Made by a program: the position numbers and the translations under genes. A stretch of 64,000 nt of DNA from positions 85,021-149,020 of the forward strand of contig MCGT01000046.1 of assembly GCA_002104935.1 (NCBI GenBank), given 5' to 3'. A model generated the notes under the pieces. That model did no database searches, was not told where the DNA came from, and saw nothing but the letters and a program-made list of their open reading frames with translations. Shown in pieces: positions 49,625-64,000 of the stretch. Position 1 is the stretch's first letter; every line of letters begins with the position of its first letter. Source of the DNA: Hesseltinella vesiculosa (lineage: Eukaryota; Mucoromycota; Mucoromycetes; Mucorales; Cunninghamellaceae).

Positions 49625-50229
49625 GTTGATCAAAAGGAGGAGCAAAAGCAAATGGTTGAAAATGTGAAGGATTTTGAAACGCAGATTCTCACACCACGGG
49701 AAATGCGAAATGGTGAGCCAATTAAAAACGCAGTAATATTGAAAATACTAAAGTGAGGAAGCGCGATTAAACCAACAAGACGAGGTACAAAAATACCATG
49801 AAGATTAGCACTGGTTCATGAAGGCGCCGTGAATGGAGAAAAGAAAAAGTGAGAGTTGCTGCATGCACTTTTCCTTTTTAAGTTCGCATTCAATGGGTTA
49901 TATTTATCATCAATACAAAAATGAATACTTTCCACTTCAAACCCGTTCAAGTTACCAAACTGGATATTCGTCGTTTGACTTTTCATCTCGTGATCTGGAA
50001 GTATCATGCCCCACTTATTCCTTGTATTCTTGAAGGTTGAAAAGGTAGTAAATAAACAAATCCTTCCTACAGACTTTGCAGGAGAGAGAGAGAGAGAGGC
50101 AGAGGGTGCCAGAGACAAGAAAAACAACGAGCGGGGTTAATTGAAAAGGGCGTGCCGCGTTCAAAGAGTTCTTTTTCTTTCTATTACTTTTTTTTTACAG
50201 CCTTGCTTCAGCATTTACTTACATTTAAA
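49625..50229. other. Divergent intergenic region, ING / Fanzor-1
   Basis: 605 bp. Contains a short GA repeat (about 50082-50097) and no recognised gene. No inverted terminal repeats were seen bordering the Fanzor gene. Confidence 0.5.
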
Positions 50230-53200
50230 ATGGGGCGTCATATAAGAAGAAGGCAATTACGAATAGATGCAAATAAGACTTGGTTGTATAACTTGAAAAT
50301 GAGAAAATATTACATTCTCAAAGGTTTGACCTTGTTTGTTTATTTTTTAAAACGCGTTGCTTCATGATCTCATTCTCTTCCATTAGGTTTAAAGTGTACA
50401 TTGTGCCATGGATTAGGGCACAAGCGAGCAGATTGTCCATTCAACCGTTAGTATTGATCGCCCCTACATTGCCAGTTTCTAACATTTACTTTAAAGGTGG
50501 CAAACGGAAGTCCAAAACCCAGCTCAAAAGGGCCAACAAGCTTCTACGTAAGGCTGGCTCCATGGCCCGCAGGGAAAAGCAAAAGAACCCTGATGGAAAA
50601 AAAAGGGCCAAAAAATTCAAGTTGAAGGATCTCCAGTCTCTCTTGCTTGGTACCAATTTCAAAACCCGTGTTCGCAAGATATCTCTTTGTAATGCTCTTA
50701 ACATGACCCAAGACAATATCCAAGACCAACGCCAAGCAAAGATGGACGTCCAAGAAACCATCCTCCTATGGGTCGATCACATCCGCTATGTCTCAATCTG
50801 CGCCCAGTCGTTCTTCAGCTATTATGTTCTGCATGTCATGTCTGAGGGTTCTGTGGTCAACGATACTGTATTCTGTAAAGATTTTTTCTATGGGATCTGC
50901 CAACTGGTGACTGGCAAGGCTGTGACCTCCCCCAACTCGAACATACCTGATCCTACAGCAATGTATCACCATTACCAGTCTCTCTTGGGTGACTGCCGCT
51001 TCGAACTATATTGGATCAAGGGTGCTAGTAACATGATTTCTGAAATGGCGGATGAGTTAGCCCAAATCAATCTCTTGGCTGTGACTGAACGTTTTGAAGA
51101 AAAGTGTATCAAGTATATTCGCTTTCGCTTGGTCAACACCCTCAAGGATCAGCTGTCTGAAGGCCAGGTCAGTAAGAAAGAGAGAGAAAGTAAGAAGGCG
51201 CGAGTTGCTCACTTTTTTTTTTTTTTTTGACATAGGAAATGCCAAAGTCCGGTTATATTATGAACGCATGCCAGAATATTTACGACACTGTCACCCGTCA
51301 AGAAAAAGTTGAGCCACTGTCAGAAAATAGCCCTGATCTCTTGCGAACGATCGTCTCAACATTTATCTCAACCCTGAACTTTGGTCCAAGTCCAGTTACG
51401 CTGAAGGAACTTACTGCAAGCCCCGGAACATATTTGCAAGTACTTTACCGACTATTGCAAGAAATGGAACAAGGCAACGACCTGGAACCATCTGAGATTG
51501 GGCATGGCGATGTGCATGATCAAATGGACACAATCACCATGAAGCTCTTACTATCATCTAACATGGACTATCAGGTGCTGCCTCGTCGCTGTCGCCAAAG
51601 AGTATTCAAGGGCATGATGCAATTGCTGGAGCACCCAGACAATCCAATTGACATCCCCTGGAGTCTACCGGAAGAATTTAAGACCTGGCTGTCAGATCTC
51701 GTCCTTGGCCTTCGTGTAAAGTTGGCAAACTCCAAGGCGAAACTGGCTGGCACTGACATATCAGCAGACCTTTGCTTCTCCTCCTCCACCATGAGGCAAT
51801 CCAAGTCAACAGCCCTCTTTTCCCTTGTGCCGACTTTGTCCTTTCGTCGCCGGTTTATCACTTTGGATGCCTACTCATTTCGGTCAATTCTCAAGCAAGC
51901 CGGTATAAACGTGACTGTGCCGTCAGGTGTCAATACTCATCCTTATACCCGCCTTGCTCGCGATGCCACTCTCTTTTTCACCTACCTGGACTTTCAGAAG
52001 GCTCGTCTTCGAAAATGGTAACCGAGTAACATTGTGAAAATGGCAGGAATCGTGACTGATTTTTTTTTAGTACTGCCGCACTTTTGCATTATCCAACGCT
52101 CACTGAAACTGACAGCGACAGTGATGATGACGCTGATGGTGCTGATCCCGATGTTGACAACGGTGATGCCGAAGATGATAGTGGCAGTGTTACTGATGGA
52201 GATGCTAATGACATCGGCAACCCTGCTGGCGGCTCTGATGGTGCTCACAATACCCCATCGGAGGGCGAAAGCGACGATGGTGATCAAGATCAAGGCAGAT
52301 TTACTGACGAGACAACACGCCAGGACGATGGCAGCGATACTCAATTGAGTGAAATCGATAGTAGCGATGAAGAGGAAAATGATGACCCTGCCTCCTTGGT
52401 ATTTTCCAACCGTGTTCGCACTGATGGGCTTCAATTGGAATTTATCTATGGCAAGCGCGCACCCCAAATTGAACTTCCTGATCTCGAAATGGACGACTTG
52501 CATGGTGAACCACAAGAACGTATGCAGCTGTATGGAGTCGATCCAGGACATAGTGAGCTTTACACATCTGCTCAAGAAGACAAGCACCTCCCGGGAAATG
52601 ATCGCACTGCCCCTGGCACTGAGCACAGCAGCAACAGCACCAACGGTTGGCATGGTCGGTACATGCGATTCTCGAATAATGAATGGCTATCTCTCTCTGG
52701 TCGACATGGGCGCTCATGCAATCGCAAACGTTGGCTCAAAGATTCTGGCATGGAGGAGATTCTCACGCGCATACCACCAGCAAAAACTAGCCATCCTGAC
52801 CGCTTCATTCAGCGCACCATCTACGTATTCCAACACCTTGATGATATCACCGAACATTTTGCTGATGACTATAGCCTGCATCGGTTCCTGGACTATTGTG
52901 GGGACAAGAAGATGTGCGCAGAAGTCGTCAACCACTTCGTCCATGGTGGTAACAAGTACAAACACCAGAAGGAAGACTATGATAGGTATGCACTACACAA
53001 AAAAAGGTGTGACGCCTGGACTAACTTTTTTTATAGCCGCAAACTTCCAGTGATTGCCTATGGTGGTGCATTGTTTGCGCAAACCCGTAGAGGGAAAAAG
53101 TCCACTCGCTCCGGAAAAGTGTACAAAGCACTCAAAATAGCGGAAAAGCAAGGGTTACTTCTTGTTACAAAAACAAATGAATACAACACAAGCAAGGTAA

Positions 53201-53552
53201 ATCATGAGGAGAGGGAGAAATGAAGCGCAAAATGACCTTTTTTTTCTATCTCATTTTTTTACAGGTCTGTCTAATGTGTGATGAAAAAGACCTTGAACAC
53301 AAGACCGTCGGTGACCCATTCCTGCGAGGTGCAAGCATGTCTTTGTGGTCGGTTCTACAATGCCAACACTGTAAAATCAACTGGGACAGGGACAAGCTTG
53401 CGGCTTGGAATATGTTGCGTCTTGGCAAGACTGCCCTCCAAGGATTGCCTCGCCCAGCGTTGTTCTGCCCACCACGATCCACCTCCACCGACCAATCATC
53501 ACCACACCAACAAAATTCAGCAGTTGCTTCTTCGTCTCGGGACCCTCACTAA
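50230..53552 (+). CDS. Fanzor-type (TnpB-like) RNA-guided nuclease homologue, Fanzor-1
   Basis: 989 aa, seven exons: 50230-50323, 50387-50446, 50497-51167, 51236-52017, 52071-52985, 53037-53196, 53265-53552. A zinc knuckle CTLCHGLGHKRADC (C35, C38, H43, C48) starts the protein. A basic helix region and a long helical part (about 60-535) follow, then an acidic stretch (about 545-640) and the C-terminal nuclease: GVDPGHSELYTS (D693), the NEYNTSK glutamate (E889), zinc ribbon CLMC...CQHC (896-930) and DRDKLAAWNM (D937). This is the RuvC layout of Fanzor proteins, with Glu in the NE-x-x-TS box rather than the usual RuvC-II place. Relatives cut DNA guided by an RNA from the gene's 3' region; activity here is inferred. 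No premature stop. A 51-nt intron (52986-53036) is in frame and could be retained. Confidence 0.9.
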
Positions 53553-53722
53553 TGAATATCTTTACCTCGCTGGCCAAAAAACCAGCTTATTCACGTAAGC
53601 CTGAGGCAGAATTTGAAGAGGAAATGCTGATTTTTTTTTTTTTGGCAGGTTTCTGTGGAAAAAAGTCTTTTTTGGCTTTGTTTTTTTTTTTTTTTTTTTC
53701 CTTCTTCACCTTTGGTAGCATC

Positions 53723-58484: not shown

Positions 58485-59282
58485 ATCAATGACCTGAATT
58501 TTAATCAAGGTCATTTCTCATCATTTTTCACCGGTGTGTCAAATTTGGCGTGGATTTATTTAGAGCCTTTTGACCAGATGGTCCGAGGGTCCCTCCTTGA
58601 CGAAAATGGCTGATTTTTCTTTTCTTTTTAACTGGTGAATGGGAGGTGCCAGAACAAAAGTGATCAAAGGTAGGCTCATTTTATTGACATTCTCTGATGA
58701 GCCTAGTTTATATTGAAAAGCCGTGCTTTTAGCCAGATCTCCAACAGGGTATCCTTGAGAGTGATTTCCTTGGCTTGTATTTTTTTTTTAAAAAATAAAA
58801 AGAAAAGGCATAAATCACTTTTGAGGTCAATTTAAAAATTTCACATAAAAGTGAGTCCTTATGATAGGCATTGATGCTGATACACTTTATTCACAAAGTA
58901 ATGTCGTAAGTGACAGAAACAAAATGTCACAAAAAGATCTGATAAAAATAGAAATATGAGGGGTAAGTTTAGTATAGAGTGGCGAATACCAGACCGCTTA
59001 CCAAATATCCCAACGCAAAGTCAAATATGGGATGACGCGAAAAAAGCAAAAGTTGCAGGGATACCGAGAATGAAGCAACAAAAAAAAAAAGAGGAAATTG
59101 GTCAGCACACTGTATCTTTCATGGATTTGCGTTGAGAGAAGTTACCCTATAGAATAATAAAAAATGAGTGGGTATTTTGTTGACTCCGCGCTTTTTCATG
59201 ACTTACTAGAGGACCAACAATAATCACCAGGAGCATTGCTATCTACTCTGTTGATAGTGTAAGCACAAAACCTTTTTGGGTT
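58485..59282. other. Gene-free region 3' of Fanzor-2, possible guide-RNA zone
   Basis: About 800 AT-rich bp between the stop codons of F-box gene 6 and Fanzor-2. On the minus strand it is the Fanzor-2 3' flank, where related systems encode their guide RNA. The complementary nonamers tttgcgttg (about 59126) and caacgcaaa (about 59016) could pair over about 100 nt. No conserved RNA was recognised, so this is only a candidate. Confidence 0.3.
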
Positions 59283-62200
59283 TCAATGGCGACAAAACAC
59301 AGCTGGCCGATCCAGGTGCTCTTGTTCACGCAAGCCCAAGTGGAGGATGTTGGTGGCGGCTGACTTATCTCGGTTCACGTTTGTCCTGCACACCCGGCAA
59401 TACTTGACAGCCCAAAGACCAAACGTAGCGTTCGTCAGTGGATCCAGTGCTCTTTTCGTGGATAATGATCGGTGATGGCAGAAGCAGCAAACCTACAACC
59501 AGAGATAATTGTGAGCCCACATTTTTTTTACCGTCCATGTCTTGCCACTATTACCTTGCTGGTGTACGCTTCGTTCACCACACAAACAAGCAGACGGCCC
59601 TCCTTTTCGGCTGCCTTCAGTTTCGGGATGATCGACATACGGGTTTTTTTCCCTTGGCGAGTGAAACCAAAGACACCTGATCCAAGCATAAGCAATGGTA
59701 TATTTGGACGCTCATCCTCGCCGTCTTCGTCGCCCTCGTCGTTCTCGTCGTCGTCCACATCCACACCCCTCCTAAAAATATAAATGAGCAATATTGCTCC
59801 ATTGCACTTACGCACCCCCACACCTCTAGCTTACCTAGCCTTGCTTTTCCTGTATTTCCTACCGCCTGATACAAAGATGTTCACAGCTTCATCCAGTATC
59901 TTCTGCTTGCTGACATACGCAAGAAAGCGATCGTTGGTAAATGCACTTCCGTAGAAATTTGTCAGGGAAGGCAGGCAAAGGCATAGTTGACGGCAATAGG
60001 CCATCCACCTTGGAACAGAGACGGTTTTCTTGGTCGGTAGGCTTGACATGATAGGATTGATGCCACGTTGCTCGGCGTTGTTCTGGCGTGTGTATCGTCG
60101 GCGCATGTGCCCGATGCGATGGTAAAATTCAGGATTTGTGAGTCGGAGGCATTGACGATTGGTATCCATTGACGTAAAAAGCACCGAGTGTCCAGGGTCC
60201 ACACCCATAGGCTTAAAAACTTCCATGTCTTCATCATCCAGATCGCTCATCACCAAGTCAGGGAGTAATTCGGCAGCTTTCTTCGAACAAATGAATTCAA
60301 CTGTATGACCGTCCGTTCGAATCAAGTTGGTGAACGCGATATCGGTTTCTTCAGGAGGGAGATCTGTGTTGTAAGTGCCTAGTGTGTCAAAGCTATCGAC
60401 AAAAAAGAGTAAAAAGTCTGCACTAACCACTTTTTTTTTTCCTTGCCACTTCCAAACTTACACTTTGCTAAGGTTCGCTTTTTTGAAGTTGAGCGTCTTC
60501 CAAAACACTAAGAACTTCTTCCCGACTTGCTGGAGGTCAGATTCTTGCTGAGTGTGTTCTCCAAGCTGGGTTAAAAACAGCTGGTCGTCAACTAGCCTTG
60601 GTTGCACCCCGGCTTGAGAGAATACTCGGGACCAGCATTGATGATCCATAGTGATGAACTTGCGTGTAAAGCGGAGGGTTGGAAGGAGGGTGTACATTTT
60701 TGTGGCTTGATAGAGCGAGGCTGACTGGGATTTGAAACAGAGCGACGGATCGATCATGTCATTGCCTTGCAGGTATTGGTGGGACATCGATAGTTGAAAG
60801 CGTGTCGTCCTAATCAAGGCTGTGATGGCTTGGCGCATATCGTCTTCCATACGGGGACCAAAGTTCAGTGGGAGGGCCGGGCTATTCATGAATTTATGCG
60901 TGGCACGCTGAACCTGTGCTTTTTGTCGTCGTCCAAGATCGTCAAATCCATCCACTGCGCTCAACAGTTCACGACAGTATTGGGAATCAGCTTCGTCAAC
61001 AATGACCCATTCGGATGGCTGGTCAGTTTGTGCTGTGCTGTGTGCTTCCATTTCCTCTTTTAAAAAAAAATGAGTCATCTTCTTGCAGACTAGGCTCTAT
61101 GTATATTTACCTAGGAACTTGTACATCACTGGGAGGTATTCATAAAACTTGGCTGTCAAGTTTTCAAAAGTTACTGGTTGTGGACCAAGGGAAGTTGTCT
61201 CCAGAACTGTGGCTACAGCTCGCTCCCAAGATTGGCGAGCATAGGCTGGCTCATTGGCGGGGTCTTCACCAGATAGCTTGGAATAGACATAGTTCACCAA
61301 TTTCTTGAGCTCCTTCTTTTTTGGTTTGTCCTGCATCATCCATATATATATACAAGTATATTAGAGATCGTCACTCCTGTACTCCTCTTTTTTCCCACTT
61401 ACAGTCCGAGAGATCAAGGTACGCAATTTAAATGCTATGTATGCCTTGCAGCGAGGCTCAAATGCCTCGGTAAGGCAGTTCTTGATTGTTGTTGCCAGAG
61501 TCTTGGCCATATGCGCATAGCATTGCGAGTACCCGGGAAGGGGGTCAACAGTTGGAAGACCGGCAGCGTCGAATTGTTCCACATAGGCTTGGAAAGCAGT
61601 CGCGGTGTCCTGAGGCAAGTTGGGGTTGGTGTTCGTGACCTGCTTGCCGATGACAAGTTGCATCACCCCGTACACGTACCCTTGCATGCCAAGCGTTGGA
61701 GGGATTGGTTCGCCGGCACTGAGCATCTTGAGCACATGGTGTTGGACAAAGAGCATGGCCTTGATGGACACGTTGCGCACATGATCGACTACGCGTTCAA
61801 CCTCCCGGATAACCTTGATTTTTGCGGAAAGCCGCTGGCGCCGGGTTCGACCAAAACAAGTCAGCGTTCGCTTCAACGTACATCGTCGCACAAAGCTATG
61901 GTGCCTTGGACCAAGGACGTTATTGACAATATCATCCATGCTGGTCTTGTGTGCATGGCACAGGTGGCTTGCCGTGTTGCCATGGTGCAGACAGCCATCA
62001 TTGGTGCCATCGGGAAGGATGCAGCGTTGACAGCGTGGAACATCAGGGTTGACTTGCTCCAAACGAAGCCGCTCTTGTCCAGCGGCCCTACCTTGTCTAT
62101 TCTGCTGCCGAACCATGGCTGCCGTTGGAACCCCGAAATAGCCTGCAGTAAAAAAAAAAAAAAAATTAGATCAGGCACTCTTCAGATTGACTTACGATTG

Positions 62201-62424
62201 AAAGGACAGAGACGAGATCTTGCATTATTATGGTTTGATCCACCGCATCTTGGGCAAGGTACTCTTCCTGTATGTTTTGAAATGAAGCATTTGTTCAGCT
62301 CATCTAGTTTTGTTGTTTTACTGCGCCTATTACCTCTTTGCTCTTCTTCTTCGCGTCGTTGTATTTTCCTTCTTTTCAAACTTTCCAAGTATATTCGCTG
62401 CTCCTGTACGGTGTCCATATTCAT
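59283..62424 (-). CDS. Fanzor-type (TnpB-like) RNA-guided nuclease homologue, Fanzor-2
   Basis: 922 aa, seven exons on the minus strand: 62196-62424, 61403-62142, 61111-61330, 60462-61056, 59835-60392, 59555-59771, 59283-59492. A basic, Glu/Arg-rich N-terminus leads to a Cys/His cluster CPRCGGSNHNNARSRLC (57-73). A second Cys/His-rich patch follows (RCQRCILPDG...LCHAHK). The helical body shares TLRFTRKFITMD and LGPQPVTFENLTAK with Fanzor-1. Nuclease end: GVDPGHSVLFTS (D660), an acidic insert (VDVDDDENDEGDEDGEDE), NEAYTSK (E848), CCFC...CRVC ribbon (855-888) and NRDKSAATNIL (D895). All presumed catalytic residues are intact. Five introns match Fanzor-1 in place and phase. Two start Mets are possible (62424, 62418). 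Confidence 0.9.
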
Positions 62425-63061
62425 CAGTAGAGGGTAAGATGAGGAATAGTAAAAATCGAAAAAGTACTAGCAGAGATGACAGGGATTGGGAAGTGGAAAA
62501 AAAAGGTGAAAGAAGAGGAAAACGTGAAACAAAAAAAAAAACTAGAAAGGGGCGAGGCGTGGGTTGTGATTTTCACCTTTTTTTTTGTGCCCATGGGCTT
62601 TTCCTCTGCATCTTTTTACGAGCGGTGGACACTGAACCTCGTTGATTATTTAGTTCGACCATCTGAAATTCATAGACGGTTGCAGCTCCCCTTCAGCTGC
62701 TTCGCTATTTCTGTGTCTCCACCGAGCCTTCGCTAATCACGGTAAGCAAATCAGAGTCAGAATGTGGTTTCAAAAAAAAAAAAAAAAAAAAGAATGTGGT
62801 TCATTTTGCACTGCGATGGCCAGGTAAAAGTCTAATAGGCTCACTCTCCTGAAATTGAAATATCGCACACGGCAGCAGATCGCCTGCTCATATGCTTATG
62901 GCGATTAGGCTCCTCACATGGCCTCAGCCCGTGTTGGCGCGCGAAACCCCACCCTGAGTCTATCCCAGAGTTTGTCCAACACCTCTACTCCAGAATTGGT
63001 CAGTTCCTGCAAAAGATACTGCCCAGAGATTCATGCGAAGTCGTCCCTCGGTGCTCGAACG
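62425..63061. other. Spacer between Fanzor-2 and Fanzor-3
   Basis: 637 bp between two minus-strand Fanzor genes. It contains the Fanzor-2 promoter region and the Fanzor-3 3' flank. The word agaatgtggtt is repeated on either side of an A20 run (about 62760-62802). Also a possible guide-RNA position for Fanzor-3. No terminal inverted repeat was found. Confidence 0.4.
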
Positions 63062-64000
63062 TCAAACGCCCCACCTAATGGCTCGACGTAATCGACTTTT
63101 ACGCCTAAGAATCCAGAACATGTTGGCAGCGGCGGACACGTCTCGATCCCACACCATTTGGCAAGTGGTGCAGAACTTCAAGGCAAAGATCGACGACTGA
63201 TCTTGCGTGCGCACGGGCGACAGTTGCCCACCACAGGTGCTGCAGTTCTAGTTTGGATAAGCAAATTAGATATGCCCACCACGCTCTTATTTTTTTTTTT
63301 TGGCCATCTTACCTGGCTGGTCCAGAACTCGTTGGTGTGGGCAACCATGCACAACGCCTGGTGCTGTCGTTTGATCAAGTGCTGTCTGATGTTGTTCGTT
63401 CTGCCCACTGCGTGCCCACGAAAATGTTGGGCATCTCGACCAACCATGGCATCACCGAACGAGATCAGTGGCAGGCCATCCACTGTTTGTTGGGAGCCGT
63501 GATATGGCAACTTGCTGGCTCGCATGCGGCTAGAGTATACATAAAAAGGAGCATGAGATAACGCAAATAGCCCATTTTTGTATTACGTTGGTTGCTGAGG
63601 GGGTCGAGGTATTTTTGTTGGAGTGACACGAGATGGTGTTCCAAGGCTCCAATTTCGGTGTTAATGGCAGCTGTAGCTGTACCATGTCGATCTAGTGCAT
63701 GGTTCATTTCTCGAGCAAATTGGTGCTGGCCTTCTTCGGGTCGAGTTTCAGGGTGCATACCAAGTGGCTGGTCCAAGGTTATGCGCTTCATCTGGTCATC
63801 AACTCATCATGTCGTTCGCTCAAGCGCCGAAGATTTTCCAAGCGTGATTTCGTCTTGCTATACTCATCCTTGATTTGCAACAAACGAGCATGCCATTTTC
63901 GTTGCATCTGTCGCTTTCGTTGCTTCCGATTTTTCCTTGTCTTACGCTTGTCTCGGCAACGTCGGGTGTACTTGCGAGATCCAGTGGTGATGATATTGGC
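63062..64000 (-). CDS. Fanzor-type (TnpB-like) protein, Fanzor-3, 5' part beyond the window, possibly frameshifted
   Basis: The C-terminal part of a third Fanzor homologue; its 5' part lies beyond 64000. The last two exons are clear. 63313-63518 encodes LPLISFGDAMVGRD, VGRTNNIRQHLIKRQHQALC and the NEFWTSQ box with the catalytic-type Glu. 63062-63247 encodes NCSTCGGQL, FCTTC and VWDRDVSAAANMFWIL, then a basic end and stop. The intron after TSQ is at the same place and phase as in the other two genes. Upstream, 63794-64000 reads a very basic, helical stretch (YTRRCRDKRKTRKNRKQRKR) that stops, and 63587-63791 continues in another frame (MKRITLDQPLGMHPETRPEE). No convincing intron explains that shift, so this copy may be damaged, or the base call wrong. 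An intron of 68 nt (63519-63586) with a weak acceptor would join the later parts. Confidence 0.75.

Follow-up and report, generated by a model that had tools for sequence, protein, structure and literature searches.

A Fanzor gene, probably of the Fanzor1 type, with an N-terminal CCHC motif in a multi-copy mobile element of the fungus Hesseltinella vesiculosa

The window analysed here comprises 64,000 nucleotides of the Hesseltinella vesiculosa genome (contig MCGT01000046.1, positions 85,021 to 149,020 of the forward strand; coordinates below are those of the window) and contains, at 50230-53552, a gene of the Fanzor family that we call FzA. Its gene model, a prediction from the DNA, joins seven exons (six predicted introns) into a protein of 989 residues with no inner stops, in which a CCHC zinc-knuckle motif precedes a RuvC nuclease core. 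An initial annotation had read the gene as an intact Fanzor with an N-terminal zinc knuckle, and all the motifs on which it relied (the CCHC string, GVDPGHS, NEYNTSK, the paired CxxC motifs and DRDKLAAWN) were found in the 989 residues where it had placed them. The gene is made up as follows:

50230..50323, plus strand: exon 1, residues 1-31, ending in phase 1
50324..50386, plus strand: intron 1, GT and AG retained, 11 nt missing at its 5' splice site
50387..50446, plus strand: exon 2, 60 nt, phase 1-1, with the zinc knuckle CTLCHGLGHKRADC at residues 35-48
50497..51167, plus strand: exon 3, REC/WED region, judged by position
51236..52017, plus strand: exon 4, REC/WED region, judged by position
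52071..52985, plus strand: exon 5, acidic linker (approximately residues 541-660) followed by RuvC-I
52540..52542, plus strand: codon of D693 in GVDPGHS (which starts at residue 691), RuvC-I
53037..53196, plus strand: exon 6, with TNEYNTSK at its end
53179..53181, plus strand: codon of E889 in NEYNTSK, the relocated (alternative) catalytic glutamate
53265..53552, plus strand: exon 7, zinc ribbon (C896, C899, C927, C930), RuvC-III, C-terminal tail and stop
53391..53393, plus strand: codon of D937 in DRDKLAAWN (which starts at residue 935), RuvC-III

Several criteria support the Fanzor identity. Pfam family PF07282 (Cas12f1-like TNB, the zinc ribbon) matches FzA with 30.1 bits, above its cut-off of 26.3, and a relaxed Fanzor fingerprint recurred in none of 20,000 shuffles of the FzA protein. 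The DPG motif at RuvC-I, which serves as a Fanzor criterion in PMC10711439, is present as GVDPGHS at 691, and E889 with C896 and C899 reproduces the ExxxxxxCxxC arrangement of the alternative glutamate (PMC10711439), in agreement with the relocated catalytic residue annotated earlier. A published C-terminal rule, D-X(125,275)-[TS][TS]-X-X-C4 zinc finger-X(5,50)-RD (PMC3627910), is satisfied by D693, T892 and S893, C896/C899/C927/C930, and R936 with D937. The narrower search pattern of PMC10711439 spans 120-160 residues from DPG to E and 12-18 between the CxxC pairs; the corresponding spacings in FzA (193 and 27) exceed both.

Profiles built from FzA and its relatives in the same genome were then compared with 177,635 PDB sequences, one covering the RuvC-I stretch (A3, four sequences) and one the C-terminal stretch (A2, seven sequences). 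The A3 profile matched exactly one PDB sequence at E up to 10, the Spizellomyces Fanzor1 (7e-7), with the matched part lying after DPG. The A2 profile matched 35 sequences at E up to 10; 24 of these fell below 0.01, all TnpB-like, Cas12 or Fanzor by name, counting LaTranC and an AI-designed RNA-guided nuclease, which we presume to belong there. Among the A2 matches were the TnpB-like protein L79 (1.1e-7), which we take to be a mimivirus protein, the Guillardia Fanzor1 (1e-5) and the Spizellomyces Fanzor1 (0.008); in a pairwise alignment with L79 (weak, E 0.89), E889 and D937 of FzA land on a matching E and D. Whereas the C-terminal profile matches both Fanzor1 and Fanzor2/TnpB, the RuvC-I profile matches Fanzor1 only, and by this evidence FzA is provisionally assigned to the Fanzor1 type. 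In a protein database, the single FzA protein had no matches at E up to 0.001 (8000 candidates scored) and an FzA/FzB alignment, FzB being the second Fanzor gene described below, had none at E up to 10 (6089 candidates), which suggests that this database contains no close fungal relatives. A scan of viral contigs gave no relative.

The CX2CX4HX4C spacing at residues 35-48, reported earlier and confirmed here, was found in 13 of 50,000 shuffles of the FzA protein. In the model the motif has an exon to itself between phase-1 introns. Two further Fanzor genes lie on the minus strand of the window, in an element that is cut by the contig end:

59283..62424, minus strand: FzB, a second Fanzor gene, 922 aa, with the knuckle CPRCGGSNHNNARSRLCPF
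62424-62196, 62142-61403, 61330-61111, 61056-60462, 60392-59835, 59771-59555 and 59492-59283, minus strand: the exons of FzB
63062..64000, minus strand: FzC, a third Fanzor gene, 3' part, cut by the contig end (TNEFWTSQ...CSTC...CTTC...DRD)
58877..64000, minus strand: tandem FzC-FzB element, truncated at the contig end, its right end at 58877

FzB is 33% identical to FzA, and at that distance both N-termini (CPRCGGSNHNNARSRLCPFNR in FzB, CTLCHGLGHKRADCPFNR in FzA) hold the CCHC motif plus CPFNR; an intron directly follows the FzB knuckle in its model. A copy of FzC on contig C12 has two knuckle motifs, the first of which occupies an 87-nt exon of its own, also between modelled phase-1 introns. 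The knuckles of FzB and FzC are spaced CX2CX4HX7C, in contrast to CX2CX4HX4C in FzA, and a further Fanzor, FzD (modelled at 1298 aa), lacks a knuckle at that place and has another Cys/His pattern, CPTC ... HRCPSH. The knuckles standing alone on phase-1/phase-1 exons in FzA and FzC, together with the intron after the FzB knuckle, point to one inherited modular exon. Judged by these sequences, the knuckle looks like a conserved exon of one Fanzor lineage and not like a one-off fusion. Its earlier description as an unusual extra module thus stands for the extra N-terminal module but not for its rarity, since two distant Fanzor families of this genome have it too. The CCHC motif of FzA probably binds zinc. 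An N-terminal profile compared with solved structures returned no Fanzor and two TFIIE matches (E 0.17 and 0.21).

In the genome (27.05 Mb, 85 contigs), the FzA gene is part of an element of about 4 kb that is present in 17 copies, whose aligned stretches are mostly 90–99% identical, apart from some short or broken ones with lower values. The four knuckle ligands are unchanged in all 15 copies that cover them, D693 in 16 of 16, and E889, the four ribbon cysteines and D937 in all 17. The ratio of replacement to silent changes is 0.35 over the 17 copies (136 pairs) and 0.29 among the six whose exons are open (15 pairs). By part, over all pairs, it amounts to 0.163 for residues 1-80, 0.392 for 81-540, 1.079 for the linker (541-660) and 0.159 for 661-960, while the tail (961-989) has no silent changes. 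Because copy pairs are not independent, we also counted distinct variants once: residues 1-80 have 13 silent and 11 replacement variants (ratio 0.225), residues 661-893 have 39 and 30 (0.21), and residues 894-960 have 7 and 9 (0.347). On this count the N-terminus differs from the linker (P 0.018), as does the RuvC part (661-960; P 0.0007), whereas N-terminus and RuvC part do not differ from each other (P 1.0). These comparisons indicate that the FzA protein is under purifying selection and that the knuckle region is retained by it, the N-terminus being under about the same constraint as the nuclease core, with the drifting linker as an inner control.

The ends of the element were read from the points at which the copies cease to align:

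49686..53652, plus strand: FzA mobile element, window copy without the right end; the copy alignment stops sharply at 49686/49687 and at 53652
49686..49720, plus strand: left end, TTCTC, variable bases and CACGGGAAATG, weakly and imperfectly repeated, in inverted orientation, at the right end of other copies
53652..53653, no strand: junction at which the 86-bp right end is missing, by comparison with other copies

Beyond the position equivalent to 53652, 86 further bases, ending in GTGTC, are shared by the 14 other copies examined first; after them the copies diverge, and all 14 flanks compared are different. This right end has 15 matches genome-wide, each at an FzA copy; it is present in 15 of the 16 testable copies, the window copy being the one without it, and the copy on C25 is not testable as its contig stops too early. 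An intron-like stretch lies within the 86 bp (GTAAGT in 13 of 14 copies, TACTAAC in 12 of 14, TAG/CAG in 13 of 14). Altogether there are two intron-like stretches 3' of the stop codon (53553-53652 plus the right ends), and the last ends 4 bases before the right end, so that transcripts could splice almost into the flank. At the left end (49686-49696 in the window), TCTC is present in all 13 readable copies (of the other four, three could not be anchored and the fourth is truncated by its contig) and is followed by four unusually changeable bases; it could be a target or target-adjacent motif (TAM), or part of the element. Three diverged left-end matches outside the 17 copies (C34:291532, C45:785640 and C39:166812) are possibly relics.

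The inverted repeat joining the two ends is weak and imperfect, its score being reached by 6-22 of 300 shuffles in the seven copies tested. Inspection by eye of the 11 copies for which both flanks were available established no target-site duplication, and specifically none of 9 bp; in the copy on C3 the four bases ACAG stand close to either end, which was taken as chance. With a weak repeat and no 9-bp duplication in these 11 copies, the element does not show the MuDR-type combination of inverted repeats and 9-bp duplications. Helitron1 elements are recognised by 5' TC, CTRR at the 3' end and a hairpin, Helitron2 elements by asymmetric repeats and two hairpins; the FzA element has TCTC at the left end and TGTC rather than CTRR at the right end, and Helitron_like_N has one match in the whole genome. 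The Resolvase family (serine recombinase, the criterion for IS607-type Fanzor2) has no match in the genome. No transposase for the FzA element was identified by these searches for Resolvase and Helitron_like_N, other transposase families not having been searched.

The Spizellomyces guide RNA is made up of roughly 75 nt of sequence reaching to the right end of the element and a further 14-15 nt of flank (PMC10432273). The candidate counterpart in the window is:

53495..53652, plus strand: candidate guide-RNA scaffold, incomplete; in its stem, the final coding nucleotides pair with the 3' non-coding part

The 3'-terminal 158 nt of the window copy give a folding z of -2.27 (2 of 200 shuffles as good), and the 3'-most segment of the FzA element has the lowest z of 49 segments (-2.42, 40 shuffles each). 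In FzB the lowest z of 44 segments is that of 59064-58905, adjoining the right end. These folding signals at the two 3' ends are modest. In the predicted FzA stem, the last coding bases lie opposite a predicted 3' intron. Would-be guides from 14 copies matched only their own places within the sequences examined.

We think it likely that FzA is the Fanzor1 RuvC nuclease of this mobile element, served by a guide RNA from the element end and equipped with a knuckle that grips nucleic acid; the RNA guidance, the guide RNA and the function of the knuckle are inferred, the mechanism of RNA-guided cutting being taken from the family. The Fanzor protein would bind an RNA that derives from the final stretch of its element and runs, at its 3' end, into host DNA, this 3' end acting as the guide. 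It would cut DNA matching this guide beside a short motif, and cutting would favour retention or spread of the element. Together with the WED/REC lobe, the knuckle would grip nucleic acid, the scaffold RNA being its most likely ligand. The window locus should not make a guide RNA of its own if the Spizellomyces rule holds, because its right end is missing. The window protein, if made, would therefore depend on guide RNAs from other copies and could work only in trans.

A number of results weigh against this interpretation. No zinc-knuckle family of Pfam reaches its cut-off with the N-terminus of FzA (best match zf-C2H2_10, E 0.0017, 18.5 bits, cut-off 26.2) or of FzC (zf-CCHC_6, E 0.11, 12.8 bits, cut-off 22), so that the label "zinc knuckle" rests on motif and conservation. 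The FzA sequence by itself has no significant match in the PDB, significance being reached by the wider profiles only, and a two-sequence profile finds just the Spizellomyces Fanzor1 at a non-significant E of 2.3. At 989 aa, FzA exceeds the usual 600-700 aa of Fanzor1 (PMC11423790). Counted as distinct variants, the linker has 13 silent and 41 replacement changes, a ratio of 0.838 that is lower than the pairwise 1.08, and variants found in a single copy have a ratio of 0.49 against 0.30 for those common to at least two copies, which means that constraint on the present copies is weaker. As to the guide RNA, the folding signal of FzB is small (z -1.9), with a z of only -0.92 for the very last segment. 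Conservation of the 3' non-coding part was rejected as proof of a guide RNA, since introns are equally conserved. In the last 29 codons, silent variants occur at 0 of 23 sites and replacement variants at 10 of 64, a pattern that shows no clear RNA constraint; silent-site constraint in this last coding stretch was likewise discarded as proof of an overlapping RNA, total variation not being reduced.

The strongest rival concerns the window copy itself, which might be a decaying pseudogene that mis-splices intron 1 and has no guide RNA; the signal of selection would then come from the ancestors of the copies. Alone among 15 copies, it lacks 11 nt at the first 5' splice site (intron 1), where it reads GTTTGA and the 14 others read GTAAAT or GTACAT, and it is the only one of the 16 testable copies to lack the right end. 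Only six of the 17 copies, the window copy included, have exons free of shifts and stops; the other 11 are disrupted by shifts, stops or deletions, and four of these are in addition partly unread or cut by a contig end. On the other hand, all seven exons of the window copy are open, its key residues are retained, and the GT and AG of intron 1 are still present. We put this alternative at a little short of an even chance. The word "intact" in the initial annotation accordingly holds for the open exons and the retained residues, but fails for the right end and for the altered donor site of intron 1.

A second alternative accepts the nuclease but lets the knuckle act on DNA instead of RNA, where it would hold the element ends or the target and aid transposition or integration. 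CCHC knuckles can bind either nucleic acid, and no other gene was seen in the element, nor, in the two families searched, a transposase for it. In solved Fanzor1 structures, however, the lobe that WED and REC form touches both the guide RNA and the motif duplex (PMC11423790), and the present data do not discriminate between the two substrates; a DNA-binding knuckle appears unlikely to us, though it deserves consideration.

Domestication of FzA as a Fanzor-derived host gene that is no longer mobile would fit the purifying selection and the position of the window copy between two host-like genes, an ING-domain gene on the minus strand on one side and a 3'-5' exonuclease-domain gene on the plus strand on the other (the latter resembling RRP6 in our own reading). 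Copy number and ends largely refute it already, the 17 copies lying at unrelated places with sharp common ends and different flanks, and we regard it as highly improbable. Equally improbable is a Fanzor2, or a bacterial TnpB present by contamination, for which the best C-terminal PDB match (L79) could be quoted, against the six predicted introns, the length of 989 aa, a RuvC-I profile that matches Fanzor1 only and the absence of Resolvase matches from the genome.

Among known systems, Cas12f with an N-terminal zinc finger is, like FzA, a TnpB-family RuvC effector with an extra N-terminal zinc motif; it differs in being a prokaryotic CRISPR effector and in the spacing and context of that motif. 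The Fanzor1 of Spizellomyces punctatus (SpuFz1, PDB 8gkh) has the same RuvC parts as FzA by profile and likewise is the single Fanzor gene of a short element in many copies, 42 loci with full or partial Fanzor genes being known in Spizellomyces (PMC10432273). Whereas SpuFz1 has 633 aa in one open frame, 33-bp inverted repeats and putative TA duplications (PMC3627910), FzA has 989 aa, seven predicted exons, a CCHC exon and an acidic linker, and no duplication is established for its element. The Parasitella parasitica Fanzor1 (PpFz1, PDB 9cf0) is, like FzA, a fungal Fanzor1 with a lineage-specific extra module (PMC11423790), to which the A2 profile matches weakly (E 0.36). Its extra module is an insertion of ~100 aa in RuvC that binds cyclophilin (PMC11423790), in contrast to the N-terminal CCHC of FzA, and the word "zinc" is absent from the main text of that paper. 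The Fanzor1 elements MCi, ROr and PBl of Mucor, Rhizopus and Phycomyces (PMC3627910) share with the FzA element that they are fungal and multi-copy and that some lack a transposase of their own. They have MuDR-like repeats with 9-bp duplications, or duplications of 11-12 bp or 6 bp (PMC3627910), none of which was established for the FzA element; this set was compared by description, and a knuckle is possible there. Open-licence papers, the only ones searched, contained no report of a zinc knuckle (CCHC) in Fanzor or TnpB, which is weak evidence of novelty. What appears new is thus the knuckle in a Fanzor, fungal Fanzor1 elements and a fungal Fanzor1 with an extra module being already known.

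The tandem of FzC and FzB is itself a repeated unit with sharp ends, of which the left end is common to two copies on C12 and the right end to three copies including that of the window; in one copy the unit measures about 8.2 kb. By match positions the FzB-FzC pair is also present on C13, C7 and C62, giving a count of five (C12 twice, C13, C7, C62). Two other of the seven automatically flagged groups, on C64 and C1, were dropped because their rows are not close matches to both genes. The FzC copy at C12:457000-462000 has two CX2CX4HX7C motifs and a frame that, as read here, does not run through from the REC part to RuvC-I, and FzD, on contig C2, is a model with a long low-complexity insertion in RuvC. 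Clustering of 264 match rows (E up to 1e-3, plus 20 of the 82 rows of the FzA-copy search) gave 143 Fanzor-like places in the genome with gaps up to 4 kb and 171 with gaps up to 2.5 kb, fragments included. Fifteen clusters (4-kb gaps) begin within 4 kb of a contig start; these may be subtelomeric places or assembly breaks at repeats.

A wider proposal, to which we give a distinctly low probability, joins these observations: a whole lineage of Fanzors would have gained a knuckle exon, with one knuckle in FzA and FzB and two in FzC, and would depend on it for RNA-guided activity, and the tandem pairs would form a two-enzyme mobile element. The FzA exon, being phase 1-1, could be skipped in frame and yield two protein forms; and as the putative guide-RNA stem spans an intron in that transcript, an RNA could be spliced or turned into guide RNA but not both.

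Fanzors are eukaryotic RNA-guided nucleases, and the few that have been solved say little on natural accessory parts. A genome with ~140 Fanzor-like places, several knuckle-bearing families and a two-gene element offers a natural set for asking what the N-terminus does, how Fanzor genes that bear introns make their guide RNA, and of what use the nuclease is to an element without an evident transposase.

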